DNA from: Prochlorococcus sp. AG-355-O17
Lineage (GTDB): Bacteria > Cyanobacteriota > Cyanobacteriia > PCC-6307 > Cyanobiaceae
Reading direction: 5' to 3'
Length of the DNA stretch: 50,729 bases
Assembly: GCA_003280655.1 (NCBI GenBank)
Contig: QCEK01000011.1
Coordinates: forward strand, 1-50,729
Part shown: in pieces, positions 1 to 36,680 of the stretch
How the letters are laid out: each line of letters opens with the position of its first letter
Numbering within the stretch: the stretch's first letter is position 1
Program-made: the position numbers and the translations under genes
The notes under the pieces: generated by a model
Told to the model about the DNA's origin: nothing
The model's input: only the letters and a program-made list of their open reading frames with translations
The model's database searches: none

Positions 1-197
1 TCATGTTTATTTATTAAAGTGCTTTCACCCTAAATTTATAAAGTTAAAAATAAATTAAAAATTATTTAATTCCCTGGTCAAATCTGATTAAAAATTGACT
101 AACTCAAAATAAAAAAATTAATCAGAATTTAAACTCTTTTTGGGAAAAAGTTAATCTCTTTAGAGCAAGTTAAACATGGAGAATAAATTCAACACTA

Positions 198-1196
198 ATG
201 AGAAATTTTTTAAAGATAGTCTTAGGGCTATCAATAATCAGTGCAAGTATTTCAAGTTGTGGAAACAAATCAAATGATTTAATTGGAGATTTAGATTTAT
301 CTGATTGCAATCCAAATAATACTGTTGACAGCAAATATTGTGATCGAGATGGAGATTTTCTCGCAGACCTACCGCTTTCCGAAGCTGAATGGATAGATCC
401 TGAAACCATTGTGTTCTCATATACACCTGTTGAAGACCCCTCCGTTTATGCAAAAGTTTGGGAAGATTTTGTAATACATATGTCTAAGGTGACTGGTAAA
501 AAAGTCACTTTCTTACCAGTTCAATCTTATGCTGCTCAAGTTGAGGCAATGAGATCTGGACGTCTTCATGTAGCAGGAATTAATACTGGAAGCAATACAG
601 TGGCAGCAGCATGTGCAGGAGCAGTTCCATTTGGAATGATGGCTAAAAAAGATTTATCTTACGGTTATGAAATGGAAATTATTGTTCCTTCTGATAGTCC
701 AATTAATTCTCCTGCAGATTTAAAAGGTAAAAAAGTTACATTTACATCTAAGACATCTAATTCAGGATTTAAAGCACCATCGGCCATCCTTAAAGGAGAA
801 TTTGGTCTTGAGGCAAATAAAGATTTCACCCCAGTCTTTTCTGGCAAGCATCAAAATTCAATAATGGGTGTTGCAAACAAAGATTATGAAGTAGCACCAA
901 TTGCTAACTCAGTTCTTACAAGAATGGATGCAAGAGGTGTTGTTGATTCTTCTAAAATAAGAACTATTTATAAATCCCAAACCTTCCCAACGACAGGTTA
1001 TGCTCATGCTCATAATCTACATCCAGCTGTAGTTGCAAAAGTAAAGCAAGCTTTTTACACCTATAACTGGGATAATTCAACATTAGATAAAGAATTTAAA
1101 AAGGCTGATAGATTCATTTCAATAAGTCACAAGCACGATTGGGATGTTATTAGAAAAATAGATAAGGCTAATGGTGTTGTTTATGATTGCAAATAA
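198..1196 (+). CDS. phnD: Phosphonate/phosphite ABC transporter substrate-binding lipoprotein PhnD
   Basis: Periplasmic solute-binding protein that would deliver phosphonate or phosphite to the PhnC/PhnE importer encoded just downstream. The N-terminus has a basic start, a hydrophobic stretch and a lipobox-like ISSC with Cys21, so it is probably a lipid-anchored protein. The body (about 332 aa) has PhnD-family features: a TFLPVQSYAAQVEAMRSGR-like segment near residue 100, a G-x-N-T-G-S segment, and the later KVTFTSKTSNSGF segment typical of the fold. It is followed 31 bp later by phnC. No C-P lyase genes are visible, so the actual substrate is open. Homologues in Prochlorococcus have been linked to phosphite and methylphosphonate binding; that is family knowledge, not visible here. 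Confidence 0.93.
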   Translation: MRNFLKIVLGLSIISASISSCGNKSNDLIGDLDLSDCNPNNTVDSKYCDRDGDFLADLPLSEAEWIDPETIVFSYTPVEDPSVYAKVWEDFVIHMSKVTGKKVTFLPVQSYAAQVEAMRSGRLHVAGINTGSNTVAAACAGAVPFGMMAKKDLSYGYEMEIIVPSDSPINSPADLKGKKVTFTSKTSNSGFKAPSAILKGEFGLEANKDFTPVFSGKHQNSIMGVANKDYEVAPIANSVLTRMDARGVVDSSKIRTIYKSQTFPTTGYAHAHNLHPAVVAKVKQAFYTYNWDNSTLDKEFKKADRFISISHKHDWDVIRKIDKANGVVYDCK

Positions 1197-6681: not shown

Positions 6682-6735
6682 TTGGGCTATGCCCTCGCCG
6701 AGAATTGAACTCGGGGCCTCTCCCTTACCAAGGGA
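6682..6735. repeat. Left attachment-like repeat (partial tRNA-Thr copy)
   Basis: Perfect 54-bp match to 10409-10462. Bases 6690-6735 correspond to the anticodon arm with GGT, the variable loop, T arm, acceptor 3' strand and discriminator of tRNA-Thr; the D arm and 5' acceptor strand are absent. Weaker similarity continues for roughly 40 bp on the side below 6682, including CTTGCGGTA, also seen at 10393-10401. It cannot fold as a tRNA on its own. Confidence 0.88.
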
Positions 6736-6866: not shown

Positions 6867-7859
6867 ATGGAAAATTTAACAAATAAATTGAATATTTTAA
6901 TTGAAAGGATGAAAAGTTTACAAACAACCTTTTATGAGGAGCAAGGTGTGAATGATCTTTGGAGTAATAGTAAGGTTTATGAGATCATAATCGCTAATGG
7001 TTTATCCCATAATTTAATTCCAGGACACTCTGGTTCTAGAGATGCTATCGATAATAACAACATTAAATATGAATATAAACATTTTAAGAAACTAAGTTCA
7101 AATCATAGCTGGACTTTTAATGACTACAGTGAAAATACTATTAAAGGACTTATTAATAATGAATACCGTTTAATATTTGCACATATCAATGATGAGAATT
7201 ATCCTCCTAAATTTGATTGGTACTATCAAATTGAAGGAATAGATGTAGGAAACTATCTAGCTGAGGCAACAAAAAGTATAAAAAATAATAGAAAAATGAT
7301 AAACATCTCCGAAAATCAAATAAAAAGATTTTTAGTAAGTAGCGAGAAAATATTTGTCAAAAATAATTATGTACAGAAATATCAGATGTATCTCAAAGAA
7401 ATATTTGATATTACAGAAGCATTAGAAAAGCTAACTGGAGTAAAAAACTCACTTACTAGTAATAAATTTTGGGAAATATTTATAGCTTATCAACTTGGTC
7501 ATAAAGTTAATTCTGAGCAGGGAGGAAGAAAAGGGGCCCATGATGCTTATGATGAATTTGGTAATAGTTATGAATATAAAGTTAGCAAAAGTTTTTCTTG
7601 GAATTTTCAAGATATATCAAATGAAGTATTAGATAAATACTATAATGACGCAGCAATAATACTTGCTGTAGTAGATAAAGAAAATTTTTTGGTTAAAGCA
7701 ATATTTAGTGTTAAGCCACAAATTGCGGTCCCTTTCATAAAAGAAAAGTTAAAAACTAAGATGAATAAATTAAAAATTCAAAATAAAGAAATTAGGAGAA
7801 AACAAATATCTTTATCAAAGGGAGATTTAAAATTTCTTCAATTTAGCAAATTATTTTAG
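6867..7859 (+). CDS. Predicted type II restriction endonuclease with two tandem PD-(D/E)XK-like domains
   Basis: A 330-aa protein built of two similar halves. Repeat 1 has VYEIIIA (about 38-43), D59-A-I-D62, E69-Y-K71 and SWTFNDYS (81-88). Repeat 2 has FWEIFIA (201-207), H225-D-A-Y-D229, E236-Y-K238 and SWNFQDIS (244-251). The spacing from the D-A-x-D segment to E-Y-K fits a PD-(D/E)XK nuclease core, and both halves keep the acidic residues and lysine. Its gene ends 4 bp inside the convergent end of the methyltransferase gene, so the two are tightly packed. The restriction role is inferred from this fold signature and the methyltransferase neighbours. No known enzyme is recognised. Confidence 0.72.
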   Translation: MENLTNKLNILIERMKSLQTTFYEEQGVNDLWSNSKVYEIIIANGLSHNLIPGHSGSRDAIDNNNIKYEYKHFKKLSSNHSWTFNDYSENTIKGLINNEYRLIFAHINDENYPPKFDWYYQIEGIDVGNYLAEATKSIKNNRKMINISENQIKRFLVSSEKIFVKNNYVQKYQMYLKEIFDITEALEKLTGVKNSLTSNKFWEIFIAYQLGHKVNSEQGGRKGAHDAYDEFGNSYEYKVSKSFSWNFQDISNEVLDKYYNDAAIILAVVDKENFLVKAIFSVKPQIAVPFIKEKLKTKMNKLKIQNKEIRRKQISLSKGDLKFLQFSKLF

Positions 7860-8641
7860 TTAACTAATTCATTAATTCTCAAAAGAGATTGTTTGTGATA
7901 GGTTTCATTATTCTCTATCCCAATAAATCTCCTTTTATGCAATTTAGCTACATATGGGATTGTGCCACTCCCTGAAAAAGGATCAATAATTAGTTCATTC
8001 TTATTCGTGCAACCAAGAATGAGTCTTTCAATAACTGCTTCAGGTTTTTGTGAGGGGTGCTTACCGTATTTTTTTTCAGATAATTTAGTCATAGGTATAT
8101 CCCACATGTTTCTCATTTGTTTTTTATTTATTGTCATTTCTTTAAGTTGTTTATAGTTAAAAACCCAATTTTTTGCTTTTTTTCGAGAATTATTAACTGC
8201 CCAAACTATTTGTTCAGTGCTCTCACAAAATAATCTTTGGGTAATATTTGGAAAAGCATTTCTTTTATACCAAATAATTGAATTATTTATTTTAAGGTCT
8301 AATTCTTCTAATAAAAAACCAATTTTATAGATGTTGTGATAAGTTCCAAATATCATGATGTTTCCATTCTCTTTAACCAAACGTTTTATTTCACTAATCC
8401 ATTTTATGGAAAAATCTAAATAATCTTTATCATTGAATTTGTCCCATTTCTCCTCAATTTTTTTAAATTTCTTATCTCCTTTCCATAAATCATTTGATTT
8501 GTACCATCCAATCTCCTTTTTATTATCGTAACCAGAAATATTATATGGAGGGTCTGTAATGCAATGATCAAATGAATCATCTGGAAATCTTTTCATTCTA
8601 CTAATGCAATCGTCGAGAAATATTTTATTTATTTCGATCAT
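7856..8641 (-). CDS. Site-specific DNA methyltransferase, beta-type motif order (N6-adenine or N4-cytosine)
   Basis: A 261-aa modification enzyme. Catalytic motif IV DPPYN is at residues 30-34 and the AdoMet motif I DPFSGSGT at 220-227, preceded by KHPSQKP near 194. This order, with the recognition region between, is that of beta-class amino-methyltransferases. Length is normal and both motifs are intact, so it should be active. Its start overlaps the end of the second methyltransferase gene (ATGA), indicating one transcript. It probably protects one strand of the site cut by the nuclease encoded convergently at 6867-7859. Confidence 0.9.
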   Translation of the reverse strand: MIEINKIFLDDCISRMKRFPDDSFDHCITDPPYNISGYDNKKEIGWYKSNDLWKGDKKFKKIEEKWDKFNDKDYLDFSIKWISEIKRLVKENGNIMIFGTYHNIYKIGFLLEELDLKINNSIIWYKRNAFPNITQRLFCESTEQIVWAVNNSRKKAKNWVFNYKQLKEMTINKKQMRNMWDIPMTKLSEKKYGKHPSQKPEAVIERLILGCTNKNELIIDPFSGSGTIPYVAKLHKRRFIGIENNETYHKQSLLRINELVN

Positions 8642-10248
8642 TTGGATATGTGATTATTTTTATCAATGAAAAAATTTTTTTTGATTATTTTCTTTAGTTG
8701 GTTTATATTTTTAAATTTTTTGAGAGCATCTTTTTTGATCAAAACCTTAAGTAAACCATCATCCAATATTTGACTTAGGCTTGGTCTATCATTTTTGACT
8801 AAATAACTTTCAATAAAATTATTAACATAATTCTCATTATTTTCCTGATTAATATCTATTGAGAATAAATATTTTTGTGAAACTAATTTTTGAAATATAA
8901 ATATACTTTCACCTGTTAAGGTTGATTCAGAAGAATTATTTTGCTTATATGTTTTGATATTTCTTGGGACATGAATTATGTCCTTAAAATATAAATTACA
9001 TTTACTGAGAGTAAAAATAAAATCTTGAAGATTTACAAAATTAGTATCCTTAAAATAAATAAGAGCATATTTTTTTTCTTTAAGTTTTTTAGATACGTTT
9101 TTGAATACTAAATATAAATTATTTAAATATTTATCTCTGTTCATGCTTTTTTCTTTTCTATTTGATTGAACTACTTCTTTTGAAAGATTATTTTTATAGT
9201 TTAGAAAAAATTTCCAAAGTTCTAGATATTCAGAAAAGGGAATTTGATCAAAATAGGGAGGATCTGTAAAAACTAAATCTATACTATGGTCTGGGATCTC
9301 CTTATTATTTACTGACTGAAACGGTTTATTGATGAGAAATAATGATTTTTTAGTAGTTTCAAGTTCCTCAAATTTTGAACAAATTGAATTATCTAATGAA
9401 GCCTCATTCGAAAATACTTTTTTTTCTATTGATAAGAGCTTTTTTTTGAGAGTTTGAATAATGTTTCTGTCAACAGCATATTTTTTTGGAAACCAAAAAA
9501 TAAATTGAGATTGTGATTTTTTGTCCGTAAATTTGCATAGTTGCAAGACTTGCGACAACAAAAATTTTAACTCATTATTGTTTTTACAAAAATTTTTGAA
9601 ATTAATTAATATGAAATAGTTTACAGGGCTAAATAGATCAGAAATTCTTAAATTTTTATTGATAGCAATTCTACTATTTTCAATAAGATTATAATTTTCT
9701 AACTTAGATAATTCAATTTGTTTATAGTTCTTTTGTGCATAAATTTTTGAGAACTCATCAAAATATTGTGAATTTTCATCTTTGCTAATTTTTAAATTAT
9801 GATTGCTATTTTTAATAAGCACGAAGAATTCTTTTGGATGAATTTTTGAATTAATAATATTTACATATGCTTTTTGAAGAATTACTTCCCCTTTTATACC
9901 AGCAATTGAGTAAGTATATAAATATTTGTATTTTTCTTCGAAAATTTTGATTTTTTCTTTTAGAGAAACTAATTTATCTCTATTTAAACTTATGTTGGTT
10001 AGTAAGTTTTTAAATGGCATTTCATTTATTTCAGCTCCAATAAATTTTATTGAGTTTTTCGATAATACAGATCCATAAAGATTGGAGCCGCTGCCCATAA
10101 AAGGATCTAAAACAAAATCGTTATCTTTCGCAAATTTATCAAGAATATGGGATGAAATATTGATATCCTTCTTAGTCCAATAGAAAATATCATTTTTTTG
10201 AGGTTTATTGGGTTCATCAAAGACTATTTGTTTCTGAAGGGAAGTCAT
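8638..10248 (-). CDS. Second DNA methyltransferase, motif I first with a large central insertion
   Basis: A 536-aa protein. The AdoMet motif VLDPFMGSG is near the N-terminus (residues 46-54) and the catalytic DPPYFDQIPFSEYLELW segment starts at 329, followed by the C-terminal part. The roughly 275 residues between them probably contain target recognition; the order I then IV fits an alpha-like arrangement and is the opposite of the smaller neighbour. The sequence is very rich in Lys, Asn, Ile and Phe, in keeping with an A+T-rich origin. It is the first gene of the two-gene minus operon. The most likely job is modifying the second strand of an asymmetric site. Confidence 0.85.
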   Translation of the reverse strand: MTSLQKQIVFDEPNKPQKNDIFYWTKKDINISSHILDKFAKDNDFVLDPFMGSGSNLYGSVLSKNSIKFIGAEINEMPFKNLLTNISLNRDKLVSLKEKIKIFEEKYKYLYTYSIAGIKGEVILQKAYVNIINSKIHPKEFFVLIKNSNHNLKISKDENSQYFDEFSKIYAQKNYKQIELSKLENYNLIENSRIAINKNLRISDLFSPVNYFILINFKNFCKNNNELKFLLSQVLQLCKFTDKKSQSQFIFWFPKKYAVDRNIIQTLKKKLLSIEKKVFSNEASLDNSICSKFEELETTKKSLFLINKPFQSVNNKEIPDHSIDLVFTDPPYFDQIPFSEYLELWKFFLNYKNNLSKEVVQSNRKEKSMNRDKYLNNLYLVFKNVSKKLKEKKYALIYFKDTNFVNLQDFIFTLSKCNLYFKDIIHVPRNIKTYKQNNSSESTLTGESIFIFQKLVSQKYLFSIDINQENNENYVNNFIESYLVKNDRPSLSQILDDGLLKVLIKKDALKKFKNINQLKKIIKKNFFIDKNNHISK

Positions 10249-10408: not shown

Positions 10409-10462
10409 TTGGGCTATGCCCTCGCCGAGAATTGAACTCGGGGCCTCTCCCTTACCAAGGGA
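10409..10462. repeat. Right attachment-like repeat (3' half of the intact tRNA-Thr)
   Basis: Perfect 54-bp match to 6682-6735, covering the anticodon arm to the discriminator base of tRNA-Thr plus 8 bp beyond its 3' end. The repeat stops within the 5' strand of the anticodon stem, so integration here leaves the tRNA gene intact. Confidence 0.88.
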
Positions 10463-10488
10463 GTGCTCTACCGCTGAGCTACAAGGGC
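10417..10488 (-). tRNA. tRNA-Thr (anticodon GGT)
   Basis: The minus strand gives a complete 72-nt cloverleaf: acceptor GCCCTTG paired with CGAGGGC, discriminator A, D arm with AGCTCAGCGGTAGAGC, anticodon stem CTCCC/GGGAG around the loop TTGGTAA, and a T arm with the TTCAATT loop. The anticodon GGT reads threonine codons ACC/ACT. No CCA is encoded. Its 3' half is duplicated at 6690-6735. Confidence 0.96.
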
Positions 10489-10682: not shown

Positions 10683-11123
10683 ATGAATATTTTATTGATA
10701 AATGGACCAAATCTAAATCTTTTGGGCACTAGAGAACCTGATATATATGGTAATAAAACATTGAGTGATATAGAAAAAGATTTAACTAATGTTGCTAAAG
10801 AAAAAAGTATTAATCTTGAATGTTTTCAAAGTAATCACGAAGGGGAAATAGTAGATAAAATTCAGGAGTCCGTAAAAAGTATCCAAGGTATTCTTATAAA
10901 TGCTGGTGCTTTTACTCATACTTCGATTTCTATTCGTGATGCTTTAATTGGATCGAAAATTCCTTTTGTAGAATTACATATTTCAAATATTTTCAGTAGA
11001 GAAGATTTTCGTAAAGAATCTTTTCTTACAGATAAAGCTATAGGAATTATTAGTGGATTCGGCATATCAAGTTATTCCTTAGCTCTTGAAGGAATCATTG
11101 GATATTTGAGTATTAAAGATTAA
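10683..11123 (+). CDS. aroQ: 3-dehydroquinate dehydratase, type II
   Basis: Catalyses dehydration of 3-dehydroquinate in the shikimate pathway; cytoplasmic dodecameric enzyme in its family. The 146-aa form starting [15 protein letters not shown] matches type II length. Visible motifs are GTREPDIYG with the catalytic Tyr, the [16 protein letters not shown] segment with the conserved His, and ELHISN. The frame stays open upstream to a GTG at 10617, but that extension is hydrophobic and unlike the family; ATG 10680 or 10683 is preferred. The stop abuts the start of miaE. Confidence 0.95.
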
Positions 11124-11732
11124 ATGCTAGTCGATTTTAAAAGGCCCACTTCTCATATTAAATATTTATCGTCATTTACCTCAGATGAGTGGATCAAACT
11201 CGCATTATCTAATCCAATAGATATTCTTATTGACCATGCTCATTGTGAAAGAAAAGCAGCGGGAGTAGCTATTCAATTAATGTTTAGATATCCGTCAGAA
11301 CCAAATCTGGCAGAAGTTTTAAGTCCAATAGCTAGAGAGGAATTAGATCATTTTGAAAAAATACTTTATTTTTTAAAGGATCTTGGACATTCTCTTGAGT
11401 CCTTAAAACCGCCACCATATGGGGCTGAATTGTCCAAGAATATAAGAAAGGAAGAGCCCAATAGAATGCTTGATAGTTTCTTAATAGCAGGACTTATTGA
11501 AGCAAGAAGTCATGAAAGATTAAGCTTGCTTGCGCTGAATTATGAAGATAAATCGTTTAAATCCCTTTATGAGTCTCTGCTAGAGAGTGAGGCAAGACAT
11601 TTTGGAGTTTACTGGAAACTAGCGCAAACTAAATTCTCTAAAAATCAAGCTTTCAAAAGGTTAGAGGAATTGTCTGAAATTGAGTCAGCAATACTGGCTG
11701 AAACTTTTATATTGCCTAGGGTACATAGCTAA
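11124..11732 (+). CDS. miaE: tRNA-(ms[2]io[6]A)-hydroxylase, MiaE family
   Basis: Diiron hydroxylase of modified A37 in tRNAs reading UNN codons. The 202-aa protein has four metal-ligand segments: DHAHCERKAAG (first Glu/His), EELDHF, EARSHER and ESEARHF. This spacing fits the ferritin-like MiaE fold. The start immediately follows the aroQ stop, and its 3' end lies 16 bp before the cobI start, so it is in the same transcription unit as both. Confidence 0.9.
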   Translation: MLVDFKRPTSHIKYLSSFTSDEWIKLALSNPIDILIDHAHCERKAAGVAIQLMFRYPSEPNLAEVLSPIAREELDHFEKILYFLKDLGHSLESLKPPPYGAELSKNIRKEEPNRMLDSFLIAGLIEARSHERLSLLALNYEDKSFKSLYESLLESEARHFGVYWKLAQTKFSKNQAFKRLEELSEIESAILAETFILPRVHS

Positions 11733-11748
11733 AGTTAATAAAATAAAA

Positions 11749-12507
11749 ATGATAATAAAAAAGTTCTTAAGTTTACTTAATCCATATAAAACTGATTTAC
11801 CAACATTCACCATCGTTGGTGTAGGCCCTGGAGATCCATCGCTTTTAACAATTGCTGCTGTGGATGCAATAAAAAAAGCGAAAGTTATAGTTTTCCCAAT
11901 ATCAGATGATAATAAAAAGAGTTTTGCTGCGGAAATAGTCAAGAAATACACCAAATTTAAAAAAAATATCCCTATCATCTTTCCAATGGCTAGGAAGGAT
12001 TTTGATCCAGATGAAATATGGTCTAGTGCTGTAGAAAAAATTGTGAAATTCATAAAAAATGGTGAATCAGTTGTTTTACTATGTCTTGGAGATACTTCTC
12101 TATTTGCAAGTTCTTCTAATATCTTGAGGTTAATAAAAAATAATCATGCTGAAATTATTACCAAAACCATACCAGGTATTTCCTCTATATCAGCATCAGC
12201 AGCTTTGAATGATTTTGATTTGGTAAAAAAAGGCGAGACATTGATCATCAAAGAATGCTCTTCTTCAGAATCTGAATTAAAAACCCTAATTAGGGAAAGT
12301 AAGGCAAATAGAAGAACGGTATTGGCTATTATGAAAGTTGGCAAAAGATGGAATATAGTCAGGAAAATTTTGAAAGAAGAGGATATCATCAATACAACAT
12401 TAATAGCTTTAAGTGTTGGGATGCCTGATCAAATTATTCAATATGCATCACAATATAAAAAGGAATTTATGCCTTATTTTTCTTTGATTTTGATCAGGTT
12501 CGATTAA
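11749..12507 (+). CDS. cobI: Precorrin-2 C20-methyltransferase
   Basis: Cobalamin biosynthesis methyltransferase adding the C20 methyl to precorrin-2. The 252-aa protein shows the tetrapyrrole methylase signature VGVGPGDPSLLTIAAVDAIKKA near the N-terminus, a GDTSLFASS segment, and IPGISSISASAA. The frame is open upstream to 11680 inside miaE, but that segment does not resemble the family; the ATG at 11749 starts just before the conserved domain. Its stop overlaps the next start by one base. Confidence 0.9.
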   Translation: MIIKKFLSLLNPYKTDLPTFTIVGVGPGDPSLLTIAAVDAIKKAKVIVFPISDDNKKSFAAEIVKKYTKFKKNIPIIFPMARKDFDPDEIWSSAVEKIVKFIKNGESVVLLCLGDTSLFASSSNILRLIKNNHAEIITKTIPGISSISASAALNDFDLVKKGETLIIKECSSSESELKTLIRESKANRRTVLAIMKVGKRWNIVRKILKEEDIINTTLIALSVGMPDQIIQYASQYKKEFMPYFSLILIRFD

Positions 12508-36588: not shown

Positions 36589-36680
36589 TTTCGATGTGAC
36601 AACACGGCCATCCCCCGTTCCATGGTATGACTCGAACTGCGCCCTCAAATGAGGGTGAACGAAAAAGTAGCAATTGCTAC
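36589..36680 (-). promoter_or_regulatory. Structured G+C-rich leader and palindrome before the DUF4278 gene
   Basis: The 36590-36660 stretch is strikingly G+C-rich compared with everything around it. It contains a hairpin CCCTC-AAAT-GAGGG (36642-36655) and, just upstream on the minus strand, a perfect 14-bp palindrome GTAGCAATTGCTAC (36667-36680). A structured 5' leader with an operator-like site is likely; the actual promoter is not identified. Confidence 0.45.

Follow-up and report, generated by a model that had tools for sequence, protein, structure and literature searches.

The stretch of DNA analysed here (the window) comprises 50,729 nucleotides and is one entire contig (QCEK01000011.1) of the 1.59-Mb assembly of Prochlorococcus sp. 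AG-355-O17. It contains three adjacent genes, which probably constitute a Type II restriction-modification (RM) system whose endonuclease would combine two PvuII-like domains in one chain as a natural pseudo-heterodimer, accompanied by two DNA methyltransferases, one per strand. The nuclease gene (6867..7859, plus strand) encodes 330 amino acids (aa), which were assigned to two fused PvuII-like PD-(D/E)XK domains from the open reading frame (ORF), a family-level match to PvuII, a structure model and fold matches. It is convergent with both methyltransferase genes on the minus strand, M-beta (7856..8641; 261 aa) and M-alpha (8638..10248; 536 aa), and a 4-bp overlap exists between the 3' ends of the nuclease gene and the M-beta gene. 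The three ORFs are those listed in the first-pass annotation, which had taken 6867-10248 as the extent of the unit; the gene ends were correct, but the direct repeats that bound the unit had been left out.

These repeats, to which no strand is assigned, are perfect 54-bp copies spaced 3727 bp apart. The left, attL-like copy (6682..6735) is a displaced copy of the 3' part of a transfer RNA (tRNA) gene and is 100% identical to the right, attR-like copy (10409..10462), which consists of 8 nucleotides plus the 3' 46 nucleotides of tRNA-Thr(ggt). This tRNA gene (10417..10488, minus strand; ARAGORN, and Rfam RF00005 with 71.8 bits) is the integration site of a 3.73-kb islet, in which the three RM genes are the only ORFs of at least 100 aa. 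The same three genes, with 97, 98 and 96% identity, are present in the uncultured Synechococcaceae isolate AG-422-B14 (locus L005).

Duplication, fold and distribution of the nuclease

The aligned family shows that the 330-aa nuclease arose long ago by tandem duplication, the similarity of its halves being far beyond what could be expected by chance. A profile-profile comparison of residues 1-165 with residues 166-330, based on 26 aligned sequences including that of the window, gave a probability of 99.1, an expectation value (E) of 5e-19 and 25% identity over 118 columns, and both of the D-A-x-D...E-Y-K cores that had been noticed earlier are present. The core of the first half, D59-A-I-D62...E69-Y-K71 with E39 upstream (7041..7079, plus strand), aligns with DAVDnaGqEYELK of PvuII when the family profile is compared with PDB sequences, and the core of the second half, D226-A-Y-D229...E236-Y-K238 with E203 upstream, lies at 7542..7580 (plus strand). 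Residues E39, E69 and K71 of half 1 and E203, D226, E236 and K238 of half 2 do not vary in any of the 26 rows, the window included. In a tree of the 52 halves, the 26 first and the 26 second halves form separate sides (100/100 each, with a bootstrap that the tool reported as unsettled), and therefore a single duplication most likely occurred before the family spread.

Nineteen aligned positions are at least 85% conserved in both halves. The same residue is found at 11 of them, including E39/E203, D59/D226, E69/E236 and K71/K238, and different residues are fixed at the other eight, including N34/S198, S35/N199 and N85/Q248. According to our own reading of the alignment register, N34/S198 is located near Asp34 of PvuII, which the title of entry 3pvi names as a DNA-recognition residue. 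The fixed differences agree with, and thus lend indirect support to, the recognition of two different half-sites; given how long ago the halves diverged and that their fixed residues differ, a non-palindromic site is the most likely.

The AlphaFold model of the nuclease, built with the 26 sequences, has a mean predicted local distance difference test (pLDDT) score of 88.1 and a predicted template modelling (pTM) score of 0.84. Its best match in the PDB is the engineered single-chain PvuII, 3ksk (Foldseek E 2e-15, TM-score 0.64), an entry of 2010 that was presumably within the AlphaFold training set. VIA-align superimposed 295 residues within 1..330 on 3ksk with Z 19.6 and a root mean square deviation of 5.0, a value at which the mutual placement of the two halves in the model is only approximate. 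PvuII entries were matched both by residues 166-330 (six entries, Z 11.3-12.9) and by residues 1-163 (two entries, Z 11.6-11.8), and the next fold matches were the PvuII-like domains of Eco15I and NhoI (Z 9.5-10.3). In the model, both halves fold as PD-(D/E)XK domains with the PvuII fold and its catalytic residues, and the chain as a whole corresponds to a pseudo-dimer of PvuII, which favours the proposal of the first-pass annotation that each half may cut one strand from a single chain. The first-pass annotation had not recognised the nuclease family; the fold, however, is already known, and PF09225 (PvuII) is matched by 13 of the 26 family members at E <=0.1, with a best value of 5.9e-11. 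When the family profile was compared with PDB sequences, 3ksk again ranked first (E 5.5e-4). Four of the 26 nucleases also match PF22522 (DUF6998; best E 9e-7), a family of unknown function that may be PvuII-like as well.

The window nuclease matched no recognised model in Pfam, NCBIfam, PADLOC or PHROGs; its one Pfam match, PF17878 (ssDBP, E 0.002), lay below the cut-off of that model and was dropped, as were matches to dynactin. Among 300 genomes of the same family the nuclease was found in its own genome only, and among 386 genomes of the phylum there were two additional weak matches, which were dropped, one of them having seven stops. A two-sequence profile scan of genome contigs yielded 29 loci (L005-L033), which together with a gut fragment (L002) and the window make 31 loci. 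The 29 loci are assigned to one cyanobacterium, Pelagibacteraceae, Bacteroidetes, Bacillota, Myxococcota, Bdellovibrionota, Zixibacteria, Melainabacteria, several candidate phyla and one archaeal metagenome-assembled genome fragment, and the identity of their nucleases to that of the window is 97% for L005 and 40-53% for the remainder. The gut fragment is an unannotated 8.2-kb record, the sole match in the phage search, and is a phage candidate only. A plasmid collection contained no match to the nuclease, and three scans of viral contigs retrieved no relative. Single-domain or split (two-gene) relatives were not reported, no search having been aimed at them, and a natural tandem PvuII was not named among the open-licence PMC papers listed, although REBASE may hold relatives.

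The methyltransferases and their pairing

The opposite motif order of the two methyltransferases, which had been described in the first-pass annotation, was confirmed for both proteins. M-beta has DPPY at 30-33 (motif IV, 8543-8554) and DPFSGSG at 220 (motif I, 7964-7984), the order of the beta class, and M-alpha has DPFMGSG at 48 (motif I, 10087-10107) and DPPY at 329 (motif IV, 9253-9264), the order of the alpha class; the residue positions are numbered as in the near-identical L005 copies. M-beta is a CcrM-like N6/N4 DNA methyltransferase that matches PF01555 (E 9.4e-46) and the CcrM structure 6pbd (E 1.9e-44); M-alpha matches PF01555 in two stretches (E 3.7e-12) and PDLC03319 (MTase_II) across residues 23-531 (E 1.6e-12). 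Outside the window, homologues of M-beta (49-98% identity) adjoin the nuclease in 20 of 30 loci and homologues of M-alpha (30-96% identity) in 17 of 30.

The methyltransferases were typed by similarity to four references (E <=1e-8, half coverage) in a span starting 4 kb before the nuclease and reaching 7.5 kb beyond it. Both partners were seen in 25 of the 31 loci, and in each case one was a CcrM-like M-beta or a D12 enzyme and the other an M-alpha or a second beta enzyme. M-beta and M-alpha are paired in 12 loci (the window, L005, L007, L011, L015, L016, L018, L020, L024, L027, L028 and L029; M-alpha of L015 is truncated by the contig end), and in six of them (L007, L011, L018, L024, L027 and L028) the two are joined in a single chain. 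In eight loci (L012, L013, L014, L017, L019, L021, L023 and L031), M-beta is accompanied by a second small beta methyltransferase, L012 having an additional weak match (27%) 5 kb off. A D12-M-alpha fusion is present in five loci, with D12 assigned by Pfam in L006 and L030 and by similarity in L002, L025 and L026. In the remaining six loci (L008, L009, L010, L022, L032 and L033), a contig end lies no more than about 2.5 kb from the nuclease. In none of the 31 loci does D12 occur together with M-beta, or the second beta enzyme together with M-alpha. The simplest reading is that there are two jobs and two interchangeable enzymes for each, i.e. one methyltransferase per strand; the retention of two methyltransferases despite the replacement of partners is what would be expected for an asymmetric site.

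Nuclease and M-beta appear to have diverged together: their distances correlate with r 0.81 in 19 of the 21 M-beta loci (the two loci with broken nucleases were excluded and near relatives were retained), and none of 2000 permutations was as high. The nuclease and the methyltransferase gene facing it are arranged tail-to-tail in the window and 21 further loci, with spacings between an overlap of 44 bp and a gap of 21 bp, despite the differing methyltransferase class, and are not so arranged in the C2 loci. An ORF of about 795 aa for an alpha-like methyltransferase follows the nuclease in L002, L025, L026, L030 and L022; its C-terminal part is an Mrr_cat domain in the only two loci that were domain-scanned, L030 and the cut locus L022, and in L030 it is preceded by a helix-turn-helix protein of 163 aa.

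In three candidate-phylum loci (L014, L023 and L031, each at 10969-12303, minus strand), the second methyltransferase is fused behind a complete LexA (LexA_DNA_bind and Peptidase_S24), with an Ala-Gly cleavage site and a Ser/Lys dyad visible by eye at what we take to be their places in LexA. In L017, a separate lexA-like gene (11692-12381, minus strand) lies immediately upstream. The fusion suggests an SOS-linked control of the restriction system, and no paper title naming a LexA-methyltransferase fusion of a restriction system was found in the literature searches.

Restriction class, recognition site and alternative explanations

In the proposed mechanism, the two halves would pack on DNA like two PvuII subunits, and each would read a part of the site and cut one strand, probably inside the site, which would be Type IIT behaviour. 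A non-palindromic site would present two differing strands and would need two methyltransferases, with M-beta serving one strand and M-alpha the opposite one, and relatives would replace either enzyme with another kind and yet keep one per functional kind.

With PvuII and 3ksk, the window enzyme shares the fold across the whole chain and the DAxD...EYxK core, and its tandem layout is that of the engineered 3ksk. It differs from them in being natural, in having halves with only about 25% identity and different fixed residues, and in being accompanied by two methyltransferases; in addition, unlike in the PvuII system, no controller protein of at least 100 aa is encoded between the repeats. PvuII is a Type IIP enzyme, in which identical subunits recognise the palindrome CAGCTG, and halves that are 25% identical do not match this description. 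The first-pass annotation had considered a Type II/IIS arrangement, of which Type II stands and Type IIS is not supported: Type IIS enzymes have separate recognition and cleavage domains, whereas each half of the window enzyme lines up with an entire PvuII subunit over 147-152 residues and has no further domain. Type IIT enzymes, as outlined in sections 25, 35 and 41 of PMC4081073, have two different catalytic sites, are heterodimeric or single-chain, act on asymmetric sites and generally have two methyltransferases, separate or joined. Single-chain examples are Mva1269I, BtsCI, AciI, BsrI, BssSI and BsrBI, and heterodimeric ones are BbvCI and Bpu10I. BbvCI, the subunits of which share about 27% of their sequence, is described as the structural model of the heterodimeric kind (PMC6326814), and a narrower sense of Type IIT, i.e. 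two genes making a heterodimer, is used in PMC12707154. As far as sequence can indicate, the single chain of the window enzyme contains two PvuII-like catalytic cores that have diverged and are both intact, and two methyltransferases, separate or joined, are found in the window and in 24 further loci; the closest class is Type IIT in the wider sense, which fits in these respects. Mva1269I reportedly joins an EcoRI-like and a FokI-like domain, whereas both halves of the window enzyme are PvuII-like. Systems of the DpnII type have in common with the window one nuclease and two methyltransferases of different classes; in contrast, their site is palindromic, their nuclease subunits are identical and their methyltransferase classes are not those of the window.

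A recognition site was sought by motif avoidance, covering every word of 4-6 nucleotides along 447 kb of the own genome, a comparison with 400 kb from six genomes of the same genus without a nuclease match plus the flanks of 19 further carriers, and 320 kb of three Cytophagales carriers and 80 kb of one candidate-phylum carrier with flanks. The asymmetric GGAACC is low in the own genome (53 versus 106 expected) and in the flanks of the carriers (44 versus 77); however, relatives that lack the system are low in it too (observed/expected 0.65). In new DNA, the counts were 64 of 102 expected in the own genome (400 kb) and 89 of 115 in five relatives (400 kb; z -1.3), and in all data 111 versus 196 and 159 versus 223, respectively, so that with z -1.8 GGAACC is not established as the site. 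Were it the site, a cytosine methyltransferase would be needed for the other strand, because adenine is present on one strand only. CATGA, CCGCC and GTCCAC, which were among the most reduced in comparison with the relatives, were rechecked and the reduction was not repeated in new DNA (z 0.9, 0.3 and -0.4). The Cytophagales avoid CATCC, GAGAC, GTCAC and many palindromes, none of which is shared by the own genome. Their avoidance of short palindromes is extreme: in about 385 kb (L075-L090 and the flanks of L011, L018, L027 and L028), counted on both strands, GGCC occurs 18 times versus 1761 expected, GATC 118 versus 1589 and CTAG 68 versus 1481.

Several observations weigh against the preferred reading of a single-chain pseudo-heterodimer with one methyltransferase per strand. 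No recognition motif could be deduced from the avoidance scans of the own genome, the relatives and the carriers. The window protein alone does not match PF09225, and the profile match to 3ksk is weak, either stretch alone having E 2.6 and PvuII monomers (E 0.22-0.49) being interspersed with LptE chains (0.32-0.47); the sequence link to PvuII therefore rests on the Pfam matches of the relatives, and it is the fold that links the two firmly. The carriers are mostly metagenome bins with uncertain hosts, and in two Cytophagales loci (L027:9962-10994 and L028:9977-11240) the nuclease frame is broken while that of the fused methyltransferases remains open, which reflects either decay of the nuclease or an assembly error. 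Having been typed with four references only, a methyltransferase of another class would have escaped. The architectures cluster on the nuclease tree with 4 changes in total, the two D12 groups not being sisters, and the partner swaps may therefore be few events; four of the 26 labels on this tree (L008, L009, L010 and L022, the last a flagged long branch) were assigned by hand from cut loci. Finally, the D12 loci L002, L025, L026 and L030 contain a third, alpha-like methyltransferase (22-23% identity), which has no explanation under a scheme of one enzyme per strand.

The fused nuclease might alternatively be a pseudo-homodimer that still reads a palindrome, with methyltransferases that modify the same site on different substrates, as the two enzymes of DpnII act on double- and single-stranded DNA. 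The shared residue at 11 of the 19 conserved positions and the C-type loci, which pair a D12 methyltransferase with another class, would agree with this, and engineered single-chain PvuII is described as an active pseudo-homodimer (PMC3850674). Nevertheless, we consider it unlikely, since at 8 of the 19 positions the halves carry different fixed residues, including N34/S198 and N85/Q248, since a palindrome would not require two different sets of methyltransferases, and since three class pairings were seen rather than a fixed one.

Much less probable still is a methylation-dependent nuclease with methyltransferases that are unrelated neighbours or suppliers of its substrate. The next fold matches of the nuclease do include the PvuII-like N-terminal domain of Eco15I and NhoI in structures determined together with methylated DNA, but PvuII itself is the better match, and the constant linkage to two methyltransferases together with the co-divergence with M-beta fits a protective role. 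Equally hard to credit is an enzyme in which a single half cuts and the other is a copy for binding or dimerisation, so that it would nick or would have to dimerise to cut. In half 1, asparagine replaces D59 in one row (L013; D59 is kept in 25 of 26), a further point against two intact active sites throughout the family, and replaces D62 in four rows, whereas half 2 has D at both positions in 26 of 26; however, one would expect an inactive half to have lost the other catalytic residues, which are invariant in both halves.

The tRNA islet and the evolution of the system

An empty site is present in relative G658, in which the two flanks join at one copy of the repeat (L111:5853-5906; 54 of 54 identical). 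Its left flank matches the window in three pieces ending at 6735, and its right flank matches from 10379. In L005, the cassette is also found at tRNA-Thr, with 46-nucleotide repeats 3728 bp apart that are 89% identical, and with a different left flank. Ten further relatives match to the right of the tRNA gene and to its left only in stretches of up to about 510 bp, and none of the eleven relatives examined has RM genes at this site. No integrase is encoded among the ORFs of at least 100 aa between the repeats; the two PF00589 matches of the genome are both on other contigs, one of them, below its cut-off, in a 404-aa ORF beside tRNA-Ser. The islet may be mobile with help in trans. It resembles tycheposons and other tRNA-integrated islands in its site at a tRNA gene, the duplicated 3' part of the tRNA and the small cyanobacterial genome; however, tycheposons are reported to be 4-200 kb long and to carry a tyrosine recombinase (PMC10872708), and the islet has 3.73 kb and none. 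Elsewhere in the window, a glutamine-II riboswitch is located at 36607-36664 (minus strand; 67.5 bits).

The genes form a genuine, coherent restriction system with a wide distribution, a known mechanistic class and an unusual build, and what is surprising about it is the natural diverged single-chain PvuII, the interchangeable methyltransferase partners and the bare tRNA islet. One history, for which the case seems to us evenly balanced, is that, through one ancient duplication, the fold of a palindrome-reading homodimer became a single chain whose halves read different half-sites, that this chain spread over many phyla while the methyltransferase of each strand (beta, D12, alpha, second beta) was swapped independently, and that some lineages wired a methyltransferase to LexA, so that DNA damage, including that caused by the own nuclease, would raise protection. 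PvuII-based targeting nucleases have been engineered (PMC3857828, PMC4081073), and two active sites in one chain should yield strand-specific nickases via single mutations. The swapped partners offer a clean route to the assignment of one enzyme to each strand, and the family would represent a natural case in which a palindromic, homodimeric nuclease fold has become a diverged single chain.

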